Under the pieces are notes generated by a model. That model was not told the origin of the DNA. It saw only the letters and a list, made by a program, of their open reading frames with translations, and searched no databases. A DNA stretch of 64,000 nucleotides from assembly GCF_022842145.1 (NCBI RefSeq), contig NZ_JALHQD010000012.1, positions 1 through 64,000 of the forward strand, given 5' to 3'. Numbering within the stretch: position 1 is the stretch's first letter; every line of letters begins with the position of its first letter. The position numbers and the translations under genes are program-made. The DNA comes from Tabrizicola sp. (GTDB lineage: Bacteria > Pseudomonadota > Alphaproteobacteria > Rhodobacterales > Rhodobacteraceae). Below are positions 42,134 to 58,129 of the stretch, one piece after another.

Positions 42134-43897
42134 TCAGACAGGCAGCACGAAGAACCAGTTGGACCAAAGCACCACCACGGCCCCCAGCAGCAGGGCCAGA
42201 TAGGGCAGCATCCCCGCCTTCCGCTCGCCCAGGTCGCCGTAGGCCAGTCCCATGTCGTCGTAGGCTTCCTTCGGGAACTTCCCGCCGTCCTGGAAGTAGT
42301 GGCGATACCAGAACACCGGGAAGATGAAGGCCGCGAAGATCAGACCCGACCACAGCGCGTTCTCGTAGCCCCAGACCTTCGCGCCCGCACCCAGGAACAG
42401 GGCGTTGACGAAGGCCAGCAGCGTGTTCACCCCGATCAACCAGGTCGGAGCCTTCCACGGACGCTCCATATGGGCGCTGTCGATGCGGTGGATCCAGCCG
42501 GCGTTCAGGTTCAGGAAGTTGAACAGGATGTAGCCGACGTTCGAAATCGCGAGGACGTAGAAGTACCCCCCGATGTCCGAGGCCAGCGCCAGCAGGATCA
42601 CGTTGAAGCCAAAGTCCGTCCACATCGCGTTGCGCGGCGCGCCGTGGCTGTTCACCTCGCCCAGATACTTCGGCAGCCAGCCATCACGCGAGCCCTGGTA
42701 AAGTGTGCGCGACGACCCGGCCATGGCGGTCATGATCGCCAGGAACAGCGCCATGATCATCAGGATGACGAAGATCTGGGTGATCACCGGCCCGCCGCCG
42801 ATCATGTTGCCCAAGGCCTCGCCCACGCCAGTTCCGTCGACGATGCCGGAGGCCAGCATCCCCTCTTGCCCAAGCACGCCCTGGAACGAGAACGGAATCA
42901 GGAAGAAGAACACGATGCACAGAAGGCCCGAGTAGAAGATCGCCCGGAACGTATCGGTCTTCGGGTCCTTCAGTTCGCGGGTGTAGCAGACCGCAGTCTC
43001 GAACCCGTAGGTCGACCATGCGGCGATGTACATGCCGCCCAGGAACAGCGTCCAGCCGCCGATGTTCCACTCGCCATCCACCCCGGAATAGGCCGCCGTC
43101 GGCGGAACCAGGTTGGTGACGTTCATCCAGTTGATCGACCCGGTCAGGATCGGCACCAGACCGACCAGCAGCAACGGAACCAGCACGATGATCGCAAGAT
43201 ACTTCTGCGCGGACGCCGTCGATGCGATGCCGCGCTCCTGAATCATCAGGATGATCAGCATCAGGATCACGCCGATCACAAATGTCGAGTTGAAGTGGAG
43301 GTTACCCAGCCCCGGTATGGTGATCTGGAAAGCTTCCCAGACCCGGAAGGCCGGGGTCAGGGCCGTAACGCCATCCGTCGCCGCGACCGCCTTGATCGCA
43401 TCCTCGACCGCCACGCCCGCGTTGGCGGCCATATAGTCGATGACCGACTGCGTCTCGGCGGTGTAGCTGGCCAGATTCGCTGTCACCCAGTCGATTACCG
43501 GCTGGCTGTCGGCCAGGGGAATCGGGAACAGCGCGTTCAGGATATAGCCCGCCGCGATGGCACAGCCCAAGGACAGCACCGGCGACCAGGCGAACCAGTT
43601 GCACCAGACCGACAGGGGCGCGATCAGCTTGCCATAGCGCAGCCAGGCCGTCGCCCCGTAGACCGAGGTCCCGCCCGACTTGTTGCCGAACATCCCCGCC
43701 ATTTCGGCATAGGTGAAGCTTTGCAGGAACCCCATGACCATCGAGATCATCCAGACCGCGAAGGCCAGTTTCCCCGTCGTTCCTGCAATTCCGCCAATCG
43801 AAAACAGCACCAGTGGCGGCACACCGGCGGCGACCCAGAAGGCCCCCTTCCAGCTTAGCGCTCGGACCATTTGGCCCGATCCAGTTTCAGTCGTCAT
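42134..43897 (-). CDS. APC-superfamily amino acid/amine permease
   Basis: A 587-residue, 12- to 14-helix permease of the amino acid-polyamine-organocation superfamily (GGTSVYGATAW, AAWSTYGFETAVCYTRELKDP and MTAMAGSSRTLYQGSRDG are typical sites). An unusually long hydrophilic loop of about 70 residues lies between early helices (roughly 125-195). Its place between amt and dmmDABC suggests uptake of a methylated amine or an N-methyl amino acid; this is inference. It has its own terminator, so it is a separate unit. Confidence 0.85.
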   Translation of the reverse strand: MTTETGSGQMVRALSWKGAFWVAAGVPPLVLFSIGGIAGTTGKLAFAVWMISMVMGFLQSFTYAEMAGMFGNKSGGTSVYGATAWLRYGKLIAPLSVWCNWFAWSPVLSLGCAIAAGYILNALFPIPLADSQPVIDWVTANLASYTAETQSVIDYMAANAGVAVEDAIKAVAATDGVTALTPAFRVWEAFQITIPGLGNLHFNSTFVIGVILMLIILMIQERGIASTASAQKYLAIIVLVPLLLVGLVPILTGSINWMNVTNLVPPTAAYSGVDGEWNIGGWTLFLGGMYIAAWSTYGFETAVCYTRELKDPKTDTFRAIFYSGLLCIVFFFLIPFSFQGVLGQEGMLASGIVDGTGVGEALGNMIGGGPVITQIFVILMIMALFLAIMTAMAGSSRTLYQGSRDGWLPKYLGEVNSHGAPRNAMWTDFGFNVILLALASDIGGYFYVLAISNVGYILFNFLNLNAGWIHRIDSAHMERPWKAPTWLIGVNTLLAFVNALFLGAGAKVWGYENALWSGLIFAAFIFPVFWYRHYFQDGGKFPKEAYDDMGLAYGDLGERKAGMLPYLALLLGAVVVLWSNWFFVLPV

Positions 43898-44411: not shown

Positions 44412-45800
44412 TCATTCTGCAGGGGTTGCGGGCGGCGGGTTCGCGCCCAGGAATTCGGGATAGGCCTGAACCGGGACCTTGACCTTGTCGAGGCCCATGA
44501 TCTCGGCCGATTGCGGGACTCGCAGAAGCCCCAGCTTCTTCAGGGCCAGGGACACCAGATAGCCCGGAATGAAGCCAAGCGCCGCCATGACGAGGGCCCC
44601 GATGACCTGCCCGTACAGCGTGATCGTCGGCGCACCTTCAGCTGTCAGTGCGGGATAGCCGCTGGCAAAGATGCCCACAGCGACCACGCCCCACAGACCC
44701 ACCACGCCGTGCAGCGCCACCGCGCCCACCGCGTCGTCGATCTGCAGCTTTTCGACGTAACCCGCGACCAGCGGCATGATCACTCCGCCGATCATCGCGA
44801 TGACGAAGGCCATCGGCGGCCAGTACAGGTCCAGTCCCGCCGCGACCGAGATGATGCCACCCAGCGCGCCCGACATCATCCAGAATGGGTCATGCGTCAT
44901 CACCCAGGCCGCAATCGCACCCCCGGCAAAGCCCATCAGGATGTTGAAGGTCATGCCCGACAACGTGACCGGCGTGCCGTAGATCGAATGGAAGATACCG
45001 GACCCCCAGCTCCAAGGCTCGCCGGGGAAGATCACGCAACCCATCAGGAATCCCCAGAAGCCCGCGATGATCAGCATCAGCCCGACCAGCGCCATTGGCA
45101 TCGAATGTCCGGCGATGGCGTTGGCGCTTCCATCCGGATTGAACTTTCCGATCCGCGCGCCAAGGTTGATCAGCACGCCCAGCGTGAAGAAGCCCGCGAT
45201 GGCGTGCACGACGCCCGAAGCGCCAAAGTCATGGTAGCCAAGGGCCGTGACCAGCCAGCCATCCGCGTGCCAGCCCCAGGCCGCACCCAGGATCCAGACG
45301 AAGCTGCCCAACACGATGGCAAGGATGGTGAAGCCGACGATCTGGATCCGCTCGATCAGGCTGCCGGACATGATGCTGGCCGTGGTGGCCGCGAACATGG
45401 CGAAGGCCCCGAAGAACACGCCCGTCGCGCTGTCGGCCACGTTCGGTCCCATCACCGAACCGGCCGGATTGGCAGCCCCGATCGCATACTCCAGACCCGA
45501 GGTGCCAATCGGCCCCGGCGTCATGCTGAAGCCGGTGGGAAAGGCCCAGTAGATGAACCAGCCGGCATAGTAGAAGGTCGGGATGATGAAGGCGAAAGCC
45601 AGGATGTTCTTGATCCCCGAGGCCAGCGCATTCTTTGCGCGGCTTGCCCCCATCTCGTAGGACAGAAACCCCGCATGGATCAGCACCATCAGCGGGATGG
45701 TCAGCCAGTAGAAGGTTTCTGCCGTCGTCCGGTTCAACCCGGCCAGGCTGTCCTTCATGGCGGCAAGCTCCGCGGTCAAGGCCGCGATCTGTTCTTCCAT
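44412..45800 (-). CDS. amt: Ammonium transporter (Amt family)
   Basis: An 11-helix ammonium/methylammonium channel of 462 residues. The twin histidines of the pore are in GVVHAIAGF and VALHGVVGLWG, and the Asp before the first in ALGYHDFGASG. Instead of a signal peptide it has an N-terminal coiled-coil-like segment (residues 1-22). Its place between tmm and the amine genes suggests a role in moving ammonium or methylammonium released by amine breakdown. No glnK gene is adjacent, which is unusual for amtB; a small membrane gene follows instead. Confidence 0.92.
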   Translation of the reverse strand: MEEQIAALTAELAAMKDSLAGLNRTTAETFYWLTIPLMVLIHAGFLSYEMGASRAKNALASGIKNILAFAFIIPTFYYAGWFIYWAFPTGFSMTPGPIGTSGLEYAIGAANPAGSVMGPNVADSATGVFFGAFAMFAATTASIMSGSLIERIQIVGFTILAIVLGSFVWILGAAWGWHADGWLVTALGYHDFGASGVVHAIAGFFTLGVLINLGARIGKFNPDGSANAIAGHSMPMALVGLMLIIAGFWGFLMGCVIFPGEPWSWGSGIFHSIYGTPVTLSGMTFNILMGFAGGAIAAWVMTHDPFWMMSGALGGIISVAAGLDLYWPPMAFVIAMIGGVIMPLVAGYVEKLQIDDAVGAVALHGVVGLWGVVAVGIFASGYPALTAEGAPTITLYGQVIGALVMAALGFIPGYLVSLALKKLGLLRVPQSAEIMGLDKVKVPVQAYPEFLGANPPPATPAE

Positions 45801-48540: not shown

Positions 48541-50109
48541 GTGGCGTTCCTTCGCACCCTTCTTATCCTACTGGCCGGACTTGCCGCGGTTGTGGTGACA
48601 CTCGGGCTTTTACTGCCGCTGCCACCCCGACAGGGGATCGAAGTCACCGAAGCCTTCCCCGCCACGACCAACACCAAGATCGGCGCTGCCGTCCTCCGGG
48701 CGCAGGCGGCTCATCCGGGAAAAAGCGGTGTCATCCCTCTGGCGGGCGGGGGCGAGGCCTTTGCCGCAAGGATGCTGCTTGCGCGGACGGCCCAGCAGTC
48801 GCTCGACGTGCAGTCTTACATCTGGCAGGCCGACACGACCGGCTACCTCCTGCTGGAGGAATTGCGCGCCGCCGCCGCGCGTGGGGTCAGGGTTCGGCTT
48901 TTACTGGACGACAACGGGATTGCAGGGCTGGACGCCTCCCTGCGCGCGCTGGACGACCAGCCGAATTTCGAGGTGCGCCTGTTCAATCCTTTCACCCTGC
49001 GCCGCCCGAAACTTTTGTCCTACAGCTTCGATTTTGTCCGGCTGAACCGACGGATGCACAACAAGTCCTTCACGGCGGACGGCGCGGCAACCGTTGTCGG
49101 CGGACGGAACGTCGGCGACATCTATTTCGCCTTCGGACCGGACAAGCATTACATCGACACCGATGTGATGGCCCTTGGCCCGGCGGCAGCGGATGTCTCG
49201 ACTGCGTTCGATGCCTATTGGAACAGCGCCTCGGCCTATCCGGCAGATCTGATCCTCTCCCCGGCACCCGACGGCATGGCGCGTCTGACTTCCGCCGTAG
49301 CTGGGGTCAAGGCCGCCGATCTTGCTGCGCCTTATCTGGCAGCTATCGCCGAGTCCCCTTTGATCAGAACCCTTTTGCAAGGGCGGGATGCGATCGAATG
49401 GGCCCAGGTGACACTAGTAGTCGATCACCCCGGCAAGGGCCTTGGTCAGCCGGGTCCGGGTGGGCTGCTGATCCAGCGGCTGGCGGCAATTCTGGCGGAT
49501 GACGAAACCCGCCCCCGTGTTTCGGTCGATCTTGTCTCGGCCTATTTCGTGCCGGGGCCTGGAGGAACCGACCTCTTGACCGGTCTGGCGGCGCAAGGGG
49601 TTGCGGTCAGGGTGCTGACCAACGCGCTGGAAGCAACGGATGTCTTTGCCGTCCACGGCTCCTACGCCGAATATCGCCCCGCACTGCTGGCAGGCGGAGT
49701 TGCCTTGGGCGAACTCAGGGTTGACCCGCTGATCCCGCAACAGGACCAGACGCTGGCCAGCCTGCTTGCGGGCTCCGCCTCCTCGCTTCATTCCAAGGTC
49801 ATTGCAATCGATGGCAAACGGCTCTTTATCGGGTCCTTCAACTTCGACCCCCGCTCAGCGCGGCTGAACACCGAAATGGGCCTGCTCATTGAAAGCCCGA
49901 CCTTTGCGGCGGCGGTCACGAAGGCGGTGGATCAGGTCATGGGCCAGGACGCCTACGCGCTGCGTCTGTCCGCGGAGGGAAGCCTGGAATGGGCAGCGCG
50001 GGATCAAAACGGCGCGCAGGTGGTCCATGCGACCGAGCCCAACACCACGTGGTTCGACCGCCTCATGGTCCGTTTGATCGGTGTGTTGCCTCTGGATTGG
50101 ATGATGTGA
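48541..50109 (+). CDS. Phospholipase D family protein, cardiolipin-synthase-like
   Basis: A 522-residue membrane-anchored protein (helix at residues 5-26) with two HKD motifs: HNKSFTADGAATVVGGRN near residue 178 and HSKVIAIDGKRLFIGSFNFD near 420. The layout resembles YmdC/ClsC-type cardiolipin synthases, which join phosphatidylglycerol with a second phospholipid. It starts with GTG and has a weak ribosome-binding site. Its neighbours are unrelated to lipids; it separates tmm/cupin genes from gmaS and is convergent with gmaS. Confidence 0.85.
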   Translation: MAFLRTLLILLAGLAAVVVTLGLLLPLPPRQGIEVTEAFPATTNTKIGAAVLRAQAAHPGKSGVIPLAGGGEAFAARMLLARTAQQSLDVQSYIWQADTTGYLLLEELRAAAARGVRVRLLLDDNGIAGLDASLRALDDQPNFEVRLFNPFTLRRPKLLSYSFDFVRLNRRMHNKSFTADGAATVVGGRNVGDIYFAFGPDKHYIDTDVMALGPAAADVSTAFDAYWNSASAYPADLILSPAPDGMARLTSAVAGVKAADLAAPYLAAIAESPLIRTLLQGRDAIEWAQVTLVVDHPGKGLGQPGPGGLLIQRLAAILADDETRPRVSVDLVSAYFVPGPGGTDLLTGLAAQGVAVRVLTNALEATDVFAVHGSYAEYRPALLAGGVALGELRVDPLIPQQDQTLASLLAGSASSLHSKVIAIDGKRLFIGSFNFDPRSARLNTEMGLLIESPTFAAAVTKAVDQVMGQDAYALRLSAEGSLEWAARDQNGAQVVHATEPNTTWFDRLMVRLIGVLPLDWMM

Positions 50110-50333: not shown

Positions 50334-51641
50334 TCAGATGTCCAGCGTGTTCTGCGTCTCCCAGGCCGAGAAGTGCGAACAGTAGTCGTTCCATTCCTTG
50401 TGCTTCAGCTTCAGGAAGGCGGTCGAGAACTCCTCGCCCATCATCGACTTCAGGGTCTTGTCGCGGTCATACTCCCGCAGCGCATCCAACAGGTTCAGCG
50501 GCAGCTTCGGCGCGTTCTTCACCGTGTGCCCCATCTGATACATGTCGATATCGTGCCGCTTGCCCGGATCAGCCTTGGTCCGCACCCCATCGATACCCGC
50601 CGCCAGGATGACAGCCTGCATCAGGTAAGGGTTCGCAGCCCCATCGGGCAGCCGCAGCTCGAACCGCCCCGGTCCCGGAACGCGGACCATGTGGGTCCGG
50701 TTGTTCCCGGTCCAGGTCACCGTGTTCGGCGCCCAGGTCGCGCCGGACGAGGTCCGCGGCGCATTGATCCGCTTGTAGCTGTTCACGGTCGGATTGCAGA
50801 TCGCCGCCAAGGCCGAGGCATGCTTCATGATCCCGCCCAGGAAGTTGCGGCCCTGCTCGGACAGCCCCAGTTCCTTCGACTTGTCGGCGAAGACGTTCGT
50901 CGACCCGTCCAGGCTCCAGACCGAGATGTGGGCGTGGCAACCAGATCCGGTCAGCCCCTTGAACGGCTTCGGCATGAAGGTGCAGCGCAGGCCGTGCTTT
51001 TCGGCGACGGACTTCATCATGAACTTGAAGAAACTGTGCTTGTCGGCGGTCTGCAGGACGTCGTCGTACTTCCAGTTCATCTCGAACTGCCCGGTCGCGT
51101 CCTCGTGGTCGTTCTGGTAGGCCTCCCAGCCCAGGTCCAGCATGTAGTCGCAGACCTCGGAAATGCAGTCATACTGGCGCATGACGGCCTGCTGGTCGTA
51201 GCAGGGCTTCTCGGCCGTATCGTAGGGGTCGGCGATCTTGTCGCCTTCCGGGGTCAGCAGAAAGAATTCGGGCTCGACCCCGGTTTTCACCCGCAGACCG
51301 TCCTTGGCTGCCTCGTCGATCAGGCGGCGCAGGACGTTTCGCGGGGCCTGCGCCAGCGGCTGTTCTTCCATGACGCAGTTCGAAGCGACCCAGGCAACCT
51401 CTTTCTTCCAGGGCAGCTGGATGGCGGCTTCCGGGTCGGGGACCGCCATCATGTCGGGGTGCGCAGGCGTCAGGTCAAGCCAAGTCGCGAAGCCGGCAAA
51501 GCCCGCCCCGTCCACCGCCATGTCGTTGATCGCCTGCGTCGGCACCAGTTTCGCACGCTGCCCACCGAAGAGATCGGTGTAGGAGACCATGAAATACTTG
51601 ACGCCCTTTTCCTTGGCCCACTTGGCAAGGTCCTTCGCCAT
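50334..51641 (-). CDS. gmaS: Gamma-glutamylmethylamide synthetase (glutamine synthetase type III-like)
   Basis: ATP-dependent ligase joining methylamine to glutamate, the first step of the indirect methylamine pathway. The glutamine synthetase core is present: GVEPEFFLL, GQFEMNW, GSGCHAHISVW and RFELRLPDGAANPYL. 435 residues from ATG 51641 (GGGAG upstream). By sequence alone it could be a GlnT-type glutamine synthetase; the adjacent mgsABC genes on the same strand make GmaS much more likely. Confidence 0.9.
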   Translation of the reverse strand: MAKDLAKWAKEKGVKYFMVSYTDLFGGQRAKLVPTQAINDMAVDGAGFAGFATWLDLTPAHPDMMAVPDPEAAIQLPWKKEVAWVASNCVMEEQPLAQAPRNVLRRLIDEAAKDGLRVKTGVEPEFFLLTPEGDKIADPYDTAEKPCYDQQAVMRQYDCISEVCDYMLDLGWEAYQNDHEDATGQFEMNWKYDDVLQTADKHSFFKFMMKSVAEKHGLRCTFMPKPFKGLTGSGCHAHISVWSLDGSTNVFADKSKELGLSEQGRNFLGGIMKHASALAAICNPTVNSYKRINAPRTSSGATWAPNTVTWTGNNRTHMVRVPGPGRFELRLPDGAANPYLMQAVILAAGIDGVRTKADPGKRHDIDMYQMGHTVKNAPKLPLNLLDALREYDRDKTLKSMMGEEFSTAFLKLKHKEWNDYCSHFSAWETQNTLDI

Positions 51642-51689
51642 CACTGTAACTCCCTGTCGTCTTTTTGGTTGTTGTAGGAAAGGGCGGCC

Positions 51690-53018
51690 TTAGAAGCCGC
51701 CGTTCCGCCCCGGTATCCAGTTGGTGCCCGCCAAGGGAACCCCGGCCATCGCTGCCGCTTCGATCGTCAGCGAGACAAGGTCCTCGGGCTCGAGGTTGTG
51801 CAGGTGGTTCTTGCCGCAGGCGCGCGCGATGGTCTGCGCTTCCAGCGTCATCACCTTGAGGTAGTTCTTCAGGCGACGCCCGCCCAGGACGGGATCGAAG
51901 CGCTTGAACAGCTCCGGGTCCTGAGTGGTGATCCCCGCGGGGTCCTTCCCCTCGTGCCAGTCGTCATATGCGTCGGCGGTGGTGCCGAGCTTCTGGTATT
52001 CCTCTTCCCAGACGGGATCGTTGTCGCCCAGCGCGATCAGCGCCGCCGTCCCGATGGCAACCGCATCCGCGCCCAGGGCCATCGCCTTGGCCACATCGGC
52101 GCCTGACCGGATGCCGCCCGAGACGATCAACTGCACCTTGCGGTGCATGCCAAGGTCCTGCAGCGCCTTCACGGCCTGCGGGATGCAGGCCAGGATCGGC
52201 ATGCCGACATGTTCGATGAACACGTCCTGCGTCGCTGCGGTGCCGCCCTGCATGCCGTCAAGAACGACCACATCCGCGCCCGCCTTCACAGCCAGAGCCG
52301 TGTCGTAGTATGGCCGCGCGCCGCCGATCTTGACGTAGATCGGCTTTTCCCAATCGGTGATCTCGCGTAGTTCCAGGATCTTGATTTCCAGATCATCCGG
52401 CCCGGTCCAATCCGGGTGACGGCAGGCCGACCGCTGGTCGATCCCCTTCGGCAGGTTCCGCATGTTGGCCACGCGGTCGCTGATCTTTTGTCCCAAAAGC
52501 ATCCCACCGCCACCCGGCTTCGCGCCCTGACCAACCACAACCTCGATCGCATCCGCCCGGCGCAGGTCGTCGGGGTTCATGCCATAGCGGCTAGGCAGGT
52601 ATTGATACACCAGCGTCTTGGAATGGCCGCGCTCTTCCTCGGTCATCCCGCCGTCGCCGGTGGTGGTCGAGGTGCCGGCTTCCGATGCGCCACGGCCAAG
52701 GGCCTCCTTGGCGGGACCGGACAGGGCACCGAAGCTCATCCCGGCGATGGTGATCGGGATGTCCAGGTGGATCGGCTTCTTGGCAAAGCGGGTGCCAAGC
52801 CAGACGTCGGTCGAGCATTTCTCGCGGTAACCTTCCAGCGGATAGCGGCTGATCGAGGCGCCAAGGAACAGAAGGTCATCGAAGTGCGGCAGGTGCCGCT
52901 TGGTACCGCCGCCGCGAATGTCATAGATGCCAGAGGCGGCAGCGCGGCGGATTTCTGCGTTTACCGCCGGGGTGAAGGTCGCCGAGTAACGGGGCGGGGT
53001 ACGGGGAAGATCGGTCAT
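51690..53018 (-). CDS. mgsC: N-methylglutamate synthase subunit C (FMN glutamate-synthase domain)
   Basis: A 442-residue FMN-dependent TIM-barrel protein homologous to the central domain of glutamate synthase. KPIHLDIPITIAGMSFGALS, STTTGDGGMTEEERG, VGQGAKPGGGGMLLG and SGGIRSGADVAKAMALGADA are the FMN and substrate segments. With MgsA and MgsB it converts gamma-glutamylmethylamide and 2-oxoglutarate to N-methylglutamate and glutamate. It follows mgsB by 9 bp and precedes gmaS by 48 bp. Confidence 0.9.
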   Translation of the reverse strand: MTDLPRTPPRYSATFTPAVNAEIRRAAASGIYDIRGGGTKRHLPHFDDLLFLGASISRYPLEGYREKCSTDVWLGTRFAKKPIHLDIPITIAGMSFGALSGPAKEALGRGASEAGTSTTTGDGGMTEEERGHSKTLVYQYLPSRYGMNPDDLRRADAIEVVVGQGAKPGGGGMLLGQKISDRVANMRNLPKGIDQRSACRHPDWTGPDDLEIKILELREITDWEKPIYVKIGGARPYYDTALAVKAGADVVVLDGMQGGTAATQDVFIEHVGMPILACIPQAVKALQDLGMHRKVQLIVSGGIRSGADVAKAMALGADAVAIGTAALIALGDNDPVWEEEYQKLGTTADAYDDWHEGKDPAGITTQDPELFKRFDPVLGGRRLKNYLKVMTLEAQTIARACGKNHLHNLEPEDLVSLTIEAAAMAGVPLAGTNWIPGRNGGF

Positions 53019-53027
53019 TCCATTGCC

Positions 53028-53717
53028 TCAATAGGCCGACGCATTGTCGATGTTGAAGTTGTACAGCTTCCGGGCGCTGCCATAACGCTTGAACTCTTCC
53101 GGCTTTGCCTTCCCGTCCGCCTCGCCGCGCTTCAGAAGATCGGTGAGCAAGGCAATGTGCTCCGGCCGCATCTCTTTTTCGATGCAGTCCGCACCCAGCG
53201 ACTTTACCGAACCGCGCACGAACAGCCGCGCCTCGTAAAGCGAGTCACCCAGCGCATCACCTGCGTCACCCAGGACCACCAGGTTGCCCGACTGCGCCAT
53301 GAAGGCCGACATGTGGCCGATGGAGCCGTGGACGACGATGTCGATCCCCTTCATCGACACGCCGCAGCGGCTGGAGGCATTGCCCTTGATGACCAACAGG
53401 CCACCCCGTCCCGTCGCGCCGGCATACTGGCTGGCGTTGCCGTCGATGATGACGGTGCCCGACATCATGTTCTCGGCCACGCCCGGCCCGGCGCTGCCCT
53501 TGATCCGGATCGTCGCCTGCTTGTTCATCCCGGCGCAGTAATATCCGGTCGACCCACGGACCGTGATGTCCACCGGCGCATCCACCCCGGCGGCAATCGC
53601 ATGCGCGCCTTTCGGGTTGATGACTTCCCAGGCCGTCATGTTGGTCTGGCCCTTCAGGGCGTGAAGCGAGGAATTGAGGGCGCGCAGCCCTTCCTGCCCC
53701 AGATCGAAACTCTGCAT
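53028..53717 (-). CDS. mgsB: N-methylglutamate synthase subunit B (GltB C-terminal GXGXG domain)
   Basis: A 229-residue right-handed beta-helix equivalent to the C-terminal structural domain of glutamate synthase (GltB GXGXG, also GlxC). The repeating glycine turns are visible in GSTGYYCAGMNKQATIRIKG, GTVIIDGNASQYAGATGRGG and HGSIGHMSAFMAQSGNLVVLGD. It holds the GATase and FMN subunits together in the complex. It lies 4 bp after mgsA and 9 bp before mgsC. Confidence 0.9.
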   Translation of the reverse strand: MQSFDLGQEGLRALNSSLHALKGQTNMTAWEVINPKGAHAIAAGVDAPVDITVRGSTGYYCAGMNKQATIRIKGSAGPGVAENMMSGTVIIDGNASQYAGATGRGGLLVIKGNASSRCGVSMKGIDIVVHGSIGHMSAFMAQSGNLVVLGDAGDALGDSLYEARLFVRGSVKSLGADCIEKEMRPEHIALLTDLLKRGEADGKAKPEEFKRYGSARKLYNFNIDNASAY

Positions 53718-53721
53718 TCTC

Positions 53722-54618
53722 TCAACGCTCCCAGAAGTAGACAGTGGCGGGTTCCGGTTCCCAGACGCGGGCGTCCTCGATGCCCGGCAGGTTCACCAGC
53801 GCCCGGTATTCCGATCCGAAGGCGACATACTGATCGGTTTCGGCCATGACGGCTGGCTTGCAGGCGATAGGGTCCCGCACGACGCCGAAACCGTTCTTGG
53901 TGCCGACGACGAACGTGAAGAACCCGTCCAGATCGGTCAAGGTGGCTTCCAGCGCATTGCCCAACGTCTCGCCGGTCTGCAGCTTGTGGCTGATGAAGGC
54001 CGCCCCGACTTCGGTGTCGTTCTCGGTCTCGAAGGTCATGCCCAGGCGCTTCAATTCGCGCCGGACGCCATTGTGGTTGGACAGCGAGCCGTTGTGGACA
54101 AGGCACTGGTCCGATCCGGTCGAGAACGGGTGCGCGCCCATCGTGGTCACGGCGGATTCGGTCGCCAAGCGGGTATGGCCGATGCCGTGGGTGCCCTTCA
54201 TCTTGGCGACGTCAAAGCGGGCGGCCACATCCTTGGGCAGACCGACTTCCTTGAAGATCTCGATGCTGTCGCCCGCGCTCATCACTTTGACGCCGGGACG
54301 CAAGTGCGACAGGGCCGAGCGGGCGGCCTCCATCTGGTCCATCGGCACTTCCAGGACGGCGTGGCTGGACTTGATCTTCATGGTGACAGGCTGGCCGATT
54401 GCGTGGTGCATGTCGCCGTCCAGGTCCTTGAAATCCTTTTCGGGGTGGGCCGACTGGACTGTCAGCTTGCCCAGACCATCCTTCGCCCCGCCGTAGATCG
54501 CGATCCCCGCGCTGTCCGGCCCGCGGTCCGTCATGGTGATCAGCATGTCCGTCAGCATGGCACCCAGCTGCGGTTCCAGCTTCGGGTCTTTTAGGAAAAG
54601 TCCAACGATACCACACAT
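53722..54618 (-). CDS. mgsA: N-methylglutamate synthase subunit A (class II glutamine amidotransferase domain)
   Basis: A 298-residue Ntn-hydrolase GATase II domain. It starts MCGIVGLF, so Cys2 is the nucleophile after methionine removal; I chose ATG 54618 for that reason and because GAGGGAG lies 8 nt upstream. RGPDSAGIAIYG, HNGSLSNHNGVRREL and NDTEVGAAFISH are the conserved glutamine-site segments. It hydrolyses gamma-glutamylmethylamide rather than glutamine. First gene of mgsABC-gmaS and divergent from the small-protein/permease operon. Confidence 0.9.
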   Translation of the reverse strand: MCGIVGLFLKDPKLEPQLGAMLTDMLITMTDRGPDSAGIAIYGGAKDGLGKLTVQSAHPEKDFKDLDGDMHHAIGQPVTMKIKSSHAVLEVPMDQMEAARSALSHLRPGVKVMSAGDSIEIFKEVGLPKDVAARFDVAKMKGTHGIGHTRLATESAVTTMGAHPFSTGSDQCLVHNGSLSNHNGVRRELKRLGMTFETENDTEVGAAFISHKLQTGETLGNALEATLTDLDGFFTFVVGTKNGFGVVRDPIACKPAVMAETDQYVAFGSEYRALVNLPGIEDARVWEPEPATVYFWER

Positions 54619-54853
54619 GGATTCGTCTCCCTCACGTTGTTGCGATGACGCTAGCACCGAGTTTTCGCCGTATCAACTGGTAAGAAACAATTTTCACCTG
54701 TCGGGAAAAACGCTGCTTAATCCGTAGGCACCTGCGGTTTTTCTTGACAGAATGTCGCAGGTGGCTTTCCCTGAGGAAAACAATTTTGCCGTGCAGGGAA
54801 AGACGTCGGGGCCGCGTCGCACGGATCTCAGGAAGCGCCCAAGGGAGGAAACT
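54619..54853. promoter_or_regulatory. Divergent control region, mgs operon / small-protein permease operon
   Basis: This 235-bp region carries a 27-bp imperfect direct repeat (54686-54712 and 54779-54805, 21 of 27 identical, both opening AACAATTTT and closing GGGAAA.ACG), a 9-bp perfect inverted repeat CTTTCCCTG / CAGGGAAAG at 54765-54773 and 54794-54802, and on the minus strand a candidate promoter TTGATA-N17-TAGCGT (54676-54648). One repeat copy lies near each gene, as expected for a shared activator. Confidence 0.65.
54648..54676 (-). promoter_or_regulatory. Candidate promoter of mgsABC-gmaS
   Basis: On the minus strand TTGATA and TAGCGT are 17 bp apart, 30 bp before the mgsA ATG. The -10 is weak, which would fit an activated promoter, with repeat copy 1 directly upstream of the -35. 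Confidence 0.45.
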
Positions 54854-55138
54854 GTGGGAGACCTTAATCAGCGGATTGAGGCGATGCACCGACGCGACGT
54901 GCTTGTGGCATGGGCGTTCGTCATCGGCCTTTGGTGCGCCGTTATCTTCGTTGCGCTTGCGACATGGGACCTGGCCCCGAACAGCACGGCGCGCACCCTG
55001 CTTCTGATCGGCGGTGCGATCATCCTGATCTTCAACACCGCCGCCATCCTGGCGATGCTGAAGCATTACCGCGAAGACCGCGACTTCATGTACGGCCTCG
55101 ACATCAAGTTCCTGGACGAAGCGAAGGGAAGACGCTGA
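54854..55138 (+). CDS. Small two-helix membrane protein, first gene of the permease operon
   Basis: A 94-residue protein starting at GTG 54854, chosen because AGGGAGG lies exactly 5 nt upstream; the frame is open further back but that part overlaps the regulatory repeats. Two membrane helices (about residues 14-36, WAFVIGLWCAVIFVALATW, and 47-68, LLLIGGAIILIFNTAAILAM), a charged N-terminus and a charged C-terminal tail (HYREDRDFMYGLDIKFLDE). Its stop overlaps the next ATG (TGATG). I recognise no family. Confidence 0.8.
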   Translation: MGDLNQRIEAMHRRDVLVAWAFVIGLWCAVIFVALATWDLAPNSTARTLLLIGGAIILIFNTAAILAMLKHYREDRDFMYGLDIKFLDEAKGRR

Positions 55139-55515
55139 TGGCACATTACCAACCTCCGAAGCAGGGCAAGGCCAGCCAGCTTTTCGACGTCGTGGTGCTG
55201 GTCGTCCTGACCGTCGGCGCGCTGTTCGTGCCGCTCTGGATGGGAATGGCCGGCGCGGCCAAATCCGTCGCCACCCCGGTCGCGAACCCGACATGGGAGG
55301 CTCTGGGCCAGAACGAGGCACAGTCCGCCAAATACGAGGCCCTCGGCTACACACCCGAGACCGCGCACGATCTGATCCTTGCGCGCTTCGACTACAGCTT
55401 CTCGGTCACCGCACTCCTGACGATGATCGCGGTCATCCTGCTGTACTACTTCCTGATCCTGCGGTTTTCCGAAGTGGAATACCGCGAGGTCATTTCAGAA
55501 AAATTCGGGGAGTAA
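55138..55515 (+). CDS. Small two-helix membrane protein with periplasmic loop
   Basis: A 125-residue protein: cytoplasmic N-terminus, helix at about 16-40 (DVVVLVVLTVGALFVPLWMG), an extramembrane segment of about 45 residues rich in Ala, Glu and Asn with NPTWEALGQNEAQSAKYEAL, a second helix at about 90-110 (LTMIAVILLYYFLILRF) and a short acidic tail. One-base overlap with the preceding stop. The loop, probably periplasmic, could be a substrate-capture or gating element. No family recognised. Confidence 0.8.
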   Translation: MAHYQPPKQGKASQLFDVVVLVVLTVGALFVPLWMGMAGAAKSVATPVANPTWEALGQNEAQSAKYEALGYTPETAHDLILARFDYSFSVTALLTMIAVILLYYFLILRFSEVEYREVISEKFGE

Positions 55516-55521
55516 GCCGAA

Positions 55522-55707
55522 ATGGACCTGTGGAACTGGATTGAATACGGCGCCTGGGGGCTTTCGGCGGCCTTTGGACTGCACATGGCAATCGACTGGC
55601 TGAAGACTGACAGCAGCTATTCCGAAGATGTCCTCACCTCATCCCGCGAAGGCGAGCTTGAGGCGATGGCCGAAGAGCACGCCGAAAAGCATGGGATGAA
55701 ATCATGA
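55522..55707 (+). CDS. Single-helix small protein with acidic tail
   Basis: A 61-residue protein with one membrane helix (IEYGAWGLSAAFGLHMAIDW, residues 7-26) and a hydrophilic, glutamate-rich C-terminus (SREGELEAMAEEHAEKHG). It starts 6 bp after the previous stop and overlaps the permease gene by 4 bp (ATGA), so it is translationally tied to the permease. The size and topology recall accessory subunits of some secondary transporters, but I recognise no family. Confidence 0.8.
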   Translation: MDLWNWIEYGAWGLSAAFGLHMAIDWLKTDSSYSEDVLTSSREGELEAMAEEHAEKHGMKS

Positions 55708-57140
55708 CCCAGGTCGACATCACCTCAACCACGATGGACGGCATGGGGCCGCATGGCACCAAGGTCGGCCTGCTGCGCGTCCTTGGGCCCGCTCACGTCT
55801 GGGCGCTTGGCGTCGGGATCGTTCTGGTCGGCGAATACATGGGCTGGAACTTCGCCGTCGGCAAAGGCGGCGCCTATGCCGCGCTGATTGCCTGCTGGTT
55901 TGCGGGGATCCTTTATTCCTGCGTCGCCATGATCGACTCGGAGGTCACCTCGACCGTCGCCTCGGCGGGTGGGCAGTACACCCAGGCCAAGCACATCATC
56001 GGACCCTTGATGGCGTTCAACGTCGGCCTCTACCTTGTCTTCGCCTACACGATGCTGGAAGCCGCCAACGCAATAACCGCCGGCTACCTCTTTTCCGTCG
56101 TCGCCTCGATGACGGGACACGCCGATGCCCTGGACCAGCGGCCTTTCATCATCCTCGTCATCATGTTCCTGGCCTGGCTGAACTACCGCGGCGTGTTGGC
56201 AACGCTGACCTTCAACCTGGTCATCACCGCCATAGCCTTCATCGCGATCATTGTCCTCTTCGTCTCGACCACCGGGCTTGTCGGCAGCGGGATCATGGAG
56301 CACGCGGCCCTTTTTGAAGGTCACGAACTTCCCTACGGCTGGATCGGCGTTCTCGCCGCCATGCACTTCGGCCTCTGGTACTACCTGGGGATCGAGGGCA
56401 CGACCCAGGCCGCCGAGGAAGTCCGCTCCCCCGCCCGCGCGCTCCCGTTTGGCACGCTGGCCGGGATCATGACTCTCCTCATCGCGGCAACCCTCACCTG
56501 GTACGTCTGCTCCGGCGTCCTGCCTTGGGAGTTCCTGGGCGACGGTGTGAACGGATCGGTGGCACCGCTCTTTGACACGGCACGCCTGTCAGGATCGATC
56601 GCGCTGGTCTGGCTTCTGGGCTTCGGCACCCTCTTCGCCACCCTCGCCTCGGCCAACGGCTGCATCAACGACGCCTCGCGGGCCTGGTTCGCCATGGGCC
56701 GCGACAAGTACCTGCCCGGCTGGTTCGGCGCGGTTCACCCGAAGTACCGCACCCCCTACCGGGCGATCGTCTTCCTTGTCCCCATCGCGCTGATCTTCGC
56801 CCTTGGCGCGCCGCTGGACCAGGTCATCACCTTCTCGATCCTCTCGGGCCTTCTCGGCTACACCTTCATGCCGCTGAACATCATCCTCTTCCGGCGCAAG
56901 TGGCCGTTGGAGACGATCAAGCGCGGTTATGAACACCCGTTCCACCCGATCCCGGCCCTGACGCTTCTGACCCTGTGCGCCGTGACCTTCTTCGCGGTGT
57001 TCCTGGGCTACGGCACCCAGCTTGTCGCGATGATCGGCTTCTACATCGTGGTGTCGCTGTGGTTCCACTTCTGGCGCTACCGCTTCGTGAACCGGGGGGC
57101 GCAGTTCACCATGCCCTGGCCGAAACCACGCGGCTACTAA
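55704..57140 (+). CDS. APC-superfamily permease of the four-gene operon
   Basis: A 478-residue, 12-helix amino acid/amine permease. ALGVGIVLVGEYMGWNFAVGKGG opens helix 1 with the unwound-glycine region, and AAMHFGLWYYLGIEGTTQAAEEVRSPARALP is the helix 6 substrate region, close to ethanolamine and amine permeases. A terminator follows directly. Divergence from mgsABC-gmaS suggests the substrate is methylamine, N-methylglutamate or a related compound. Three small membrane proteins encoded just upstream probably associate with it. Confidence 0.87.
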   Translation: MTQVDITSTTMDGMGPHGTKVGLLRVLGPAHVWALGVGIVLVGEYMGWNFAVGKGGAYAALIACWFAGILYSCVAMIDSEVTSTVASAGGQYTQAKHIIGPLMAFNVGLYLVFAYTMLEAANAITAGYLFSVVASMTGHADALDQRPFIILVIMFLAWLNYRGVLATLTFNLVITAIAFIAIIVLFVSTTGLVGSGIMEHAALFEGHELPYGWIGVLAAMHFGLWYYLGIEGTTQAAEEVRSPARALPFGTLAGIMTLLIAATLTWYVCSGVLPWEFLGDGVNGSVAPLFDTARLSGSIALVWLLGFGTLFATLASANGCINDASRAWFAMGRDKYLPGWFGAVHPKYRTPYRAIVFLVPIALIFALGAPLDQVITFSILSGLLGYTFMPLNIILFRRKWPLETIKRGYEHPFHPIPALTLLTLCAVTFFAVFLGYGTQLVAMIGFYIVVSLWFHFWRYRFVNRGAQFTMPWPKPRGY

Positions 57141-57148
57141 GGACCAGC

Positions 57149-57176
57149 GGCCCGTCCCGGAAGGGGCGGGCCTTTT
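57149..57176 (+). terminator. Rho-independent terminator of the permease operon
   Basis: GGCCCGTCCC, a GGAA loop and GGGGCGGGCC (one G-U pair) followed by TTTT. It begins 8 bp after the permease stop and ends 3 bp before the next start codon, so the downstream gene's only ribosome-binding site (AAGGGG) lies inside the stem. Confidence 0.85.
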
Positions 57177-57179
57177 CCC

Positions 57180-57857
57180 ATGTCCCCCCTCATTCCCCTT
57201 GGCCTCGCCCTCGCCGCCCTGGGCCTCTGGCTTGGCTTCCGCCTGATCCGCGAAGCCCGCGCCCGCACTGCCGCCCGGGCCGGCTATTTCGCCGCGGTGA
57301 AACGCCTCTTCGACGGCGGCGAGACGCGCGTGCAGCCGACCGGCTTTCCCCGCATGACCGGCCGTCGCAACGGCCTGTCCTTCGACCTTCAGGCCGTCCC
57401 CGACACGTTGACCTTCCGGAAGCTTCCCGCGTTGTGGGTGCTGGTGACCCTGCCCGAGCCGCTGCCGCTGAAGGCCACGCTGGACCTTCTGGCCCGTCCG
57501 TCCGGCAACGAGCCCTTCACGCGTTTTGCCGACCTCGCCCAGTCGCTGCCCACCCCGCCGGAGCTGCCGAAAGAGATTGCCATCCGCAGCGACGACGCCA
57601 CCCGCATTCCGCCACCCGACCTGCTGGCCAGTCATGCCGACCTGTTCGAAGACCCCCGCGTCAAGGAACTCGTCCTTTCCCCCAAGGGCCTGCGCATCGT
57701 GATCCTGGCCGAAGAGGCCGACCGTGGCCGCTTCCTCATCTTCCGCGAAGCCGAGATGGGCCGCCTGCCCCTTGATCCCGCAAGACTGGAGCCGCTGCTC
57801 GACAGGCTGGCGGCCTTGCGCGAAGATGTCCTGACCCTTGCCAAGGCCCCCGCATGA
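57180..57857 (+). CDS. Membrane-anchored protein of unknown function
   Basis: A 225-residue protein with an N-terminal membrane segment (LIPLGLALAALGLWLGFRLI, residues 4-23) and a soluble domain predicted to be mixed alpha/beta (LSFDLQAVPDTLTFRKLPALWV, KGLRIVILAEEADRGRFLIFR). No family recognised. Its start codon is 3 bp beyond a terminator T-run, so it is either leaderless from its own promoter or read by leakage through the terminator. It overlaps the next gene by 4 bp. Confidence 0.7.
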   Translation: MSPLIPLGLALAALGLWLGFRLIREARARTAARAGYFAAVKRLFDGGETRVQPTGFPRMTGRRNGLSFDLQAVPDTLTFRKLPALWVLVTLPEPLPLKATLDLLARPSGNEPFTRFADLAQSLPTPPELPKEIAIRSDDATRIPPPDLLASHADLFEDPRVKELVLSPKGLRIVILAEEADRGRFLIFREAEMGRLPLDPARLEPLLDRLAALREDVLTLAKAPA

Positions 57858-58129
57858 AACCGCCGCTGAACCCCTATCTCGTCCTTGCCGTCGCCGTGGT
57901 CCTGCCCGGCATGGGTCAGGTGCTGAACCGCCAGCCAGTGCGCGGGCTGATCTTCGTGTGCTTTGCTATCCTCTTGGGCGGTTTCACTCTAAAGACCGCG
58001 GCGCCCGACGTGTCCTTCGTGGGCAAAATGGCGGGCGGGCTGTTTGTCTGGGCGATGGCAGTGCTGGACGCCTACAAGACCGCGCGCATCCGCCACGCGG
58101 TGTGGAGCCACGCGAACGCTCCTCGGTGA
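57854..58129 (+). CDS. Small membrane protein, 91 residues
   Basis: Three likely helices (YLVLAVAVVLPGMGQVLNRQ, RGLIFVCFAILLGGFTL and MAGGLFVWAMAVLDAYKTA). The PGMGQVLNRQPVRGLI stretch resembles small TM2/DUF5683-like proteins that have PG.GQ.YNG.. motifs, but the match is loose. ATGA overlap with the upstream gene indicates co-translation. The last codons lie within copy 2 of the dispersed palindromic repeat. Confidence 0.7.
   Translation: MKPPLNPYLVLAVAVVLPGMGQVLNRQPVRGLIFVCFAILLGGFTLKTAAPDVSFVGKMAGGLFVWAMAVLDAYKTARIRHAVWSHANAPR

Follow-up and report, generated by a model that had tools for sequence, protein, structure and literature searches.

Within the window, by which we mean the whole 64,000-nucleotide stretch of Tabrizicola DNA analysed here, an APC permease is encoded in a compact unit of six genes, S1-S2-S3-APC-S4-S5, located beside the genes of the N-methylglutamate pathway. 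We consider it rather probable that this unit is an obligate, co-inherited six-gene importer of methylammonium for the GmaS-Mgs-Mgd pathway. The linkage and the order of the six genes, their linkage to mgs, the alternation of the unit with Amt homologues, the paired operator-like elements and, as a model, the fold of S4 are computed observations. The sequence-only reading of this region had proposed a multi-subunit transporter for methylamine or N-methylglutamate. A multi-component transporter linked to methylamine is well supported by the comparative evidence, because the parts co-occur, are present together with mgsC, are positioned by mgs and share operator-like elements with it, whereas N-methylglutamate appears to be the less likely substrate.

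Organization and conservation of the gene unit

The features of the region are collected in Table 1. The divergent mgsABC-gmaS cluster was recognised correctly from the letters alone, gmaS scoring over the TIGR03105 cut-off and mgsABC being identified by domain and gene order. A trimethylamine monooxygenase gene (NF058570, over cut-off) is found further left in the window, which, with gmaS-mgsABC, the Amt gene and the TMAO permease, therefore holds a methylated-amine island. Uptake may be redundant, because an Amt gene and a TMAO permease are already present there.

Table 1. Positions of the six-gene unit and of the surrounding features in the window
Feature	Position	Strand	Basis and remarks
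TMAO permease TmoP	42134-43897		NF053774, 820 bits (cut-off 690); about 11 kb from S1
Amt gene	44412-45800		PF00909; about 9 kb from S1
gmaS, gamma-glutamylmethylamide synthetase, type III glutamine synthetase	50334-51644	-	TIGR03105, 662.2 bits (cut-off 469.6)
mgsC, FMN glutamate-synthase-like subunit	51690-53018	-	PF01645; used as pathway marker
mgsB, GXGXG-domain subunit	53028-53717	-	PF01493
mgsA, N-methylglutamate synthase glutamine-amidotransferase-like subunit	53722-54657	-	PF13522; divergent from S1; same place in relatives
Operator-like element 1, mgsA side	54685-54712	+	28-nt direct repeat; core CAATTTTnnCnnnnnGGGAAA at 54688-54708
Operator-like element 2, S1 side	54778-54805	+	28-nt direct repeat; core at 54781-54801
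S1, 94 aa, two predicted TM helices, conserved C-terminal tail HY...D...YGLD	54854-55138	+	Alignment, hydropathy; 85/85 loci
S2, 125 aa, two TM helices and long loop, conserved PPxQ start and EYRxVIxExF end	55138-55515	+	Alignment, hydropathy; 85/85 loci
S3, 61 aa, one weak TM helix, acidic tail with LTSSREGE motif	55522-55707	+	Alignment, hydropathy; 85/85 loci
APC permease, 478 aa, ethanolamine-permease-like, E44 in TM1	55704-57140	+	PF13520, TIGR00908
Hairpin, G+C-rich, 10-bp stem followed by four T	57149-57172	+	Permease-S4 gap; RNA folding
S4, 225 aa, N-terminal TM helix and soluble domain	57180-57857	+	83/85 loci; model pLDDT 93.9
S5, 91-aa membrane protein, start overlapping the S4 stop by 4 bp	57854-58129	+	83/85 loci

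The window sequence bears out the four tightly packed frames first described, of 94 (GTG start at 54854), 125, 61 and 478 residues, together with their junctions, i.e. a 1-bp overlap (TGATG, 55136-55140), a 6-bp gap (55516-55521) and a 4-bp overlap (55704-55707), and the ribosome-binding site GGGAGGAAACT 5' of the GTG start of S1. This start was preferred over an in-frame ATG at 54752, which would extend S1 to 128 aa, because three annotated relatives of S1 have only 96-105 aa. The boundary placed at the permease did not hold. The unit consists of six genes, not four, and we rejected the four-gene boundary since S4 and S5 are found 3' of the permease in 83 of 85 loci, in an order kept in relatives. 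Nor does the single terminator proposed after the permease mark the end of the unit: S4 starts 39 bp 3' of the permease, and the hairpin between them, which has only four T, is absent from the list produced by the terminator scan. The hairpin is also present in the 26 Rhodobacteraceae relatives listed, and it may be an attenuator, a processing site or a weak terminator. Intergenic gaps are mostly short across the loci, and the 4-bp overlap of S4 and S5 is found in the window and in most of them.

An S2 scan of 84,980 species genomes yielded 112 relatives, of which 80 were retained; with the window's own locus as fetched (L001) and four plasmid loci (L082-L085) they make up a set of 85 loci that are not independent, 40 being titled Mesorhizobium, 76 distinct S2 segments occurring among the 85 and some genomes being present twice. 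In tblastn comparisons S1, S2, S3 and the permease were matched in all 85 loci (for S2 this count reflects the use of S2 or the permease to fetch the loci), whereas 83 have S4 and S5. The order S1-S2-S3-permease-S4-S5 is kept in the same 83; in the two exceptions, L001 and L046, the sequence ends before S4 and S5. It is also kept in loci L086-L109 wherever the stretch is long enough. The loci span the Rhodobacteraceae, several rhizobial groups, Methyloceanibacter, a Geminicoccaceae MAG and the betaproteobacterial Paraburkholderia (L085), and the conservation of gene order exceeds chance. At one locus (L040) a break divides the permease into two frames that overlap.

Co-occurrence of the six parts

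A collection of 72,556 plasmid records was searched with S1 (E<=0.01), with S2, S4 and S5 (E<=1e-3 each) and with the permease (E<=1e-40); every one of these queries finds 22 records, and the tallies by genus agree. The matches of S1, the permease, S4 and S5 are the identical 22 accessions, those of S2 agree among the 20 of 22 listed, and S3 (E<=0.1) matches 20 records, all within the 22. In 289 alphaproteobacterial genomes the S2 profile and the permease (E<=1e-40) match the same five. A permease widely conserved without the small genes had been named as the finding that would speak against the proposal; in this check, which was run in part, no relative at E<=1e-40 lacked S2 in either collection, all such matches being at least 64% identical, so that the test covers close relatives only, and within this range the proposal withstood it. 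A link of the unit to homogentisate degradation was set aside: these genes lie beside it on Aminobacter and Pseudohalocynthiibacter plasmids, and the genes annotated around it in Paracoccus aminophilus include none of this kind.

Association with the N-methylglutamate pathway

Of 26 genomes or records that carry the unit, 23 also have an mgsC relative (at least 71% identity), including all 15 of those that are at least 90% complete. The misses were G309 (79% complete), G071 (82% complete, where the best match is a 51% paralog) and the 62-kb record of the unit-bearing Pseudohalocynthiibacter plasmid, for which the search covered the plasmid only. In a sample of 218 Rhodobacteraceae genomes the unit is present in 8 and mgsC (at least 75% identity) in 63; seven genomes have both (Fisher p 8e-4, uncorrected for kinship). 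The unit is not needed for the pathway, because most mgs carriers lack it: 56 of the 63 mgsC genomes of this sample are without the unit, and among the plasmid records 242 contain an mgsC relative (E<=1e-150) vs 22 that contain the unit.

The unit lies directly 5' of mgsA in 81 of 85 loci holding both. This set differs from the previous one; it takes in the window and the loci as far as L109, with S2 and the permease as the basis of the count and duplicates included. The orientation of the unit is divergent in the Rhodobacteraceae, and in Mesorhizobium and others it lies upstream of mgsA in the same direction. It is found after gmaS in L100, L106 and L109, some 7 kb away in L096, and in Aminobacter some 17 kb from gmaS. 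With several orientations on record, the association of the unit with mgs has therefore been formed or kept through rearrangement.

Amt homologues in place of the unit

Members of the Amt family are known to carry methylammonium. We picked 20 mgs loci (L113-L132), by hand and hence non-randomly, from the 56 genomes of the family sample in which mgsC is present and the unit absent; L103, the incomplete locus of a carrier genome, was dropped. A full-length Amt homologue lies within 1.5 kb of mgsA in 10 of these 20 loci vs none of the 85 unit loci, divergent from mgsA in five (L113, L114, L127, L128 and L129) and upstream and co-directional in the other five (L116, L118, L120, L121 and L125). Three of the ten were checked; all are PF00909 members that score below the stricter TIGR00836 cut-off, and because of these scores the substrate of the Amt proteins themselves is not certain. 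The remaining 10 unit-less loci have no full-length Amt in this slot, and several of them have a helix-turn-helix cupin regulator next to mgsA. At L106 an Amt homologue is located 3' of the unit. The alternation of an Amt-family gene with the unit in the same slot is our best argument for methylammonium as the substrate.

Operator-like elements between mgsA and S1

In the Rhodobacteraceae, the unit and mgs share a putative operator. The two 28-nt repeats of the window lie 93 bp apart and are 79% identical. Their core was itself derived from the two repeats; across the 4.33-Mb genome it is matched exactly only twice, both times between mgsA and S1, and once more with a single mismatch. With at most two mismatches it occurs in 22 of 25 Rhodobacteraceae intergenic regions; L028 and L034 reach three mismatches and L030 has none. 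Where the unit is not beside mgs (L012 and L020, both outside the matrix set), an element precedes S1 whose score is reached by 0 of 200 shuffles, the shuffles being simple Markov samples here and below, and near-matches with 1, 2 and 1 mismatches stand before the distant mgsA of the L012, L020 and L011 genomes, respectively. Of 200 shuffles, 1, 1, 2, 0 and 12 score at least as high as the best site at the five Amt loci with divergent arrangement. For the five co-directional ones the numbers are 5, 1, 4, 10 and 7 of 200 before Amt, and 156, 68, 14, 97 and 1 of 200 between Amt and mgsA. No clear element was found before 13 more distant units, where between 4 and 60 of 200 shuffles match or exceed the best site.

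The permease

The permease belongs to the APC superfamily (PF13520, AA_permease_2, 114.5 bits vs a gathering cut-off of 27); at E<=1 only PF13520 and PF00324 are matched, with no PF00909 (Amt/Mep) domain. Its best NCBIfam match is the ethanolamine permease family TIGR00908 with 182.6 bits, about half of the cut-off of 381.75, and it is the top TIGR00908 match in its own genome, yet below that cut-off. The nearest solved relative by sequence is 5oqt/6f34 (E 3-4e-21), which we take to be GkApcT. In the alignment, TM1 of the unit permease reads VGEYMGWN where 5oqt/6f34 has the GTG motif. In APC carriers a GTG-type motif in TM1 binds the amino-acid carboxylate; an acid in its place therefore fits a small amine without a carboxylate, and the residue at the E44 position may bind this amine.

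E44 is present in all eight unit permeases compared. For comparison, 12 ethanolamine-type permeases were fetched by TIGR00908, ten over the cut-off and two below it. The corresponding residue is E or D in nine, H in two (the two below the cut-off) and S in one, so an acid is found in 9/12 of these sequences and in 9/10 of those over the cut-off; the acid TM1 motif as a mark of the ethanolamine permease type is our own criterion and not a curated rule. D78, E119, N318, N322 and D323, invariant in the unit permeases (24 rows in one alignment, 8 in another), are absent from the 12, and none of S1-S5 was found within about 1.5 kb of the latter. A weak S2 match (E 0.096) lies near a paralog, L111, outside these 12.

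The small proteins and the fold of S4

None of S1-S5 of the window matches a named family above cut-off in Pfam or NCBIfam, in agreement with the initial description of S1-S3 as unrecognised. By hydropathy, the two helices attributed to S1 recur in 83 of 85 relatives, the remaining two rows being incomplete, and those of S2 in all 85, with about 56 residues separating its two hydrophobic segments. For S3 the acidic tail stands, and the single helix is weak, one segment passing the threshold in 50 of 80 relatives and none in the window copy. S2 is a single copy in its own genome, and S3 can be aligned in L085 at 37%, though the plasmid search missed both Paraburkholderia plasmids. Weak Pfam matches were seen for S1 (Rv2743c, FA_desaturase), S2 (FixQ) and S5 (DUF6677 down to E 0.0011 and DUF5683 down to E 5.4e-5) and were not used; in the window copies they are below cut-off or absent. 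PDB sequence searches with S1 and S2 gave no useful match.

S4, which belongs to no Pfam or NCBIfam family in the window, was compared through its predicted structure. The model, an N-terminal TM helix followed by an alpha/beta domain, shares the TtfA/CCDC47-type fold, and structure comparison places it near TtfA and the translocon chains 7tm3_4, 9i78_4 and 6w6l_7, which we take to be CCDC47 of the eukaryotic PAT complex/multipass translocon. When 38 members of S4 were compared with Pfam (E<=10), only scattered weak matches appeared, each in at most three members, and the S4 profile found nothing below E 0.43 among PDB sequences. Judging from the modelled fold, S4 probably supports the assembly, stability or gating of the carrier.

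Proposed function and alternatives

In the mechanism that we infer, which extends to the substrate, the direction of transport, a physical complex and its topology as well as to what each small protein does, transport itself is likely to be carried out by the APC protein, as an amine permease akin to the ethanolamine permeases. With the GTG-type TM1 motif replaced by VGEYMGWN, the invariant acid E44 could meet a small cation, and methylammonium would bind near this residue and enter with a coupling ion. S1, S2 and S3 probably serve as carrier-bound subunits with a structural or coupling role, and their conserved tails would dock on the carrier. S4-S5, encoded last, behind the hairpin, are probably an accessory pair that may act in the assembly or stability of the carrier, or in its gating by the soluble domain of S4. 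A more specific version, which we regard as quite unlikely, would make S4-S5 a private bacterial counterpart of the PAT chaperone (CCDC47-Asterix) within a partner-dependent six-component methylammonium APC transporter, shielding the polar helices (D78, E119, N318, N322, D323) until S1-S3 cover them.

The same linkage to gmaS and mgs, and the membership of the permease in an amino-acid permease family, would also be expected if the unit moved an intermediate or product of the pathway, either by import or re-uptake of gamma-glutamylmethylamide or N-methylglutamate or by an overflow export of the glutamate type. We give this possibility some weight but hold it to be unlikely, as TM1 has an invariant acid instead of the GTG-type carboxylate motif, and Amt homologues alternate with the unit in the slot. 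The large soluble domain of S4, the strongly conserved tails of S1-S3 and the paired operator-like elements could alternatively be read as marks of a transceptor, in which the carrier and S4 sense methylamine and signal to a regulator, transport being secondary; this is improbable, given that Pfam and NCBIfam searches of the six window proteins revealed no signalling or DNA-binding domain above cut-off and that the best fold matches of S4 are transport or membrane-insertion factors. Least probable of all, in our estimation, is that the small proteins are operon passengers and the permease works alone. The TMAO permease (NF053774), an APC carrier of the same island, is indeed encoded without such neighbours, as are the 12 ethanolamine-type permeases, but in the plasmid and alphaproteobacterial collections the parts were not found apart at the thresholds used, and across the loci the order of the unit stays constant while the neighbouring genes change.

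In the passages of PMC8292978 and PMC5023235 that touch on the subject, methylamine entry into cells using the N-methylglutamate pathway is little described, and the unit provides a defined six-gene candidate for it, open to deletion and expression. The text returned by a full-text literature search nowhere names the six-gene set as a transporter. According to the relevant part of PMC5023235, methylamine induces homologues of ammonium transporters and amino-acid permeases and, in Methyloversatilis, 'co-clustered conserved proteins'. The unit is located on a plasmid in Aminobacter niigataensis MD1, and the paper on this strain lists RNA-seq, proteomics and transposon tables among its contents (PMC9699525). 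If our reading of the unit as a methylammonium importer is true, it would rank as a secondary carrier of uncommon complexity within the APC family, and a common context would be gained for the five unnamed families of small proteins.

Comparison with known systems

The Amt/Mep proteins (PF00909) resemble the unit in that their homologues occupy the same place beside mgsA, but they form a family unrelated to the unit permease and take one gene only. In the section of PMC8292978 on Pseudomonas sp. C5pp a gmaS-mgsABC-amt operon is described, and its amt is called a methylamine transporter. The ethanolamine permease family (TIGR00908, Eat) shares with the unit permease the TM1 motif [SV]G-acid-[YF]-x-GW-[NS] and the TM6 region E-x-x-x-x-AAEE, at 26.7-29.3% local identity for the 12 sequences compared. 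TmoP (NF053774) is, like the unit permease, an APC carrier in a methylated-amine island, at about 19% identity (in an alignment that includes misframed rows) and with no S1-S5-like genes noted nearby.

Among the fold relatives of S4, CCDC47 has 9-11% identity to it, with no sequence relation found in the Pfam search of S4 members, and unlike S4 it is a eukaryotic, general membrane-protein chaperone. We know of no S5-like partner of TtfA. The latter (PDB 6t84; PMC6593404) is 8% identical to S4 over the aligned residues and, in the part of that paper dealing with its function, is an accessory factor of the MmpL3 transporter, a carrier other than the one proposed for S4. The modelled S4 fold would tie a bacterial transporter unit to TtfA and to a eukaryotic membrane-protein insertion factor, and carrier-specific assembly factors therefore become a directly testable idea.

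The premise that APC permeases normally act without dedicated small subunits needs some qualification, since GkApcT with bound MgtS and the SLC3A2-SLC7 heteromers are APC carriers with an extra membrane partner. The kind is therefore already known. These systems have one partner, with no known kinship to S1-S5, and no six-gene unit; what is new here is the proposed obligate six-gene version with five unnamed families.

Gene Neighbourhoods of mgsA and of the Permease Unit

At mgs loci without the six-gene unit, mgsA is often adjoined by a gene for a helix-turn-helix cupin regulator. The domains of this protein were matched in Pfam and, as PuuR-like, in NCBIfam for locus L113, and were judged by eye in L115, L117, L119, L122–L124, L126 and L132, where the gene lies 5' of mgsA. 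The regulator is a candidate to bind the operator-like element, the 28-nt repeat found twice between mgsA and S1.

The Amt gene occupying the slot beside mgsA in L113 is followed by one for a predicted membrane protein that matched nothing in Pfam, a further carrier/small-protein pair adjoining mgs. In L146 and L147, where the unit has relocated and no longer adjoins mgs, the divergent neighbour of mgsA is a TMAO-permease-like gene, 79% identical to the window TMAO permease.

In Methyloceanibacter marginalis the unit's permease gene is split between two frames that overlap, reflecting either decay or an assembly error. In L083, L084 and L145 (Aminobacter and Pseudohalocynthiibacter plasmids), the unit has hmgA and other homogentisate degradation genes at a distance of a few kb. 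The window gene between tmm and gmaS presumably resembles phospholipase D/cardiolipin synthase-type proteins.

Positions of the genes discussed
Gene	Position	Remark
Helix-turn-helix cupin regulator	L113:14145-14864	
Predicted membrane protein	L113:13818-14036	72 aa
TMAO-permease-like	L146:4332-6092	adjoins mgsA
TMAO-permease-like	L147:5320-7080	adjoins mgsA
Split permease	L040:4147-5696	
Gene between tmm and gmaS	window 48541-50109	opposite strand
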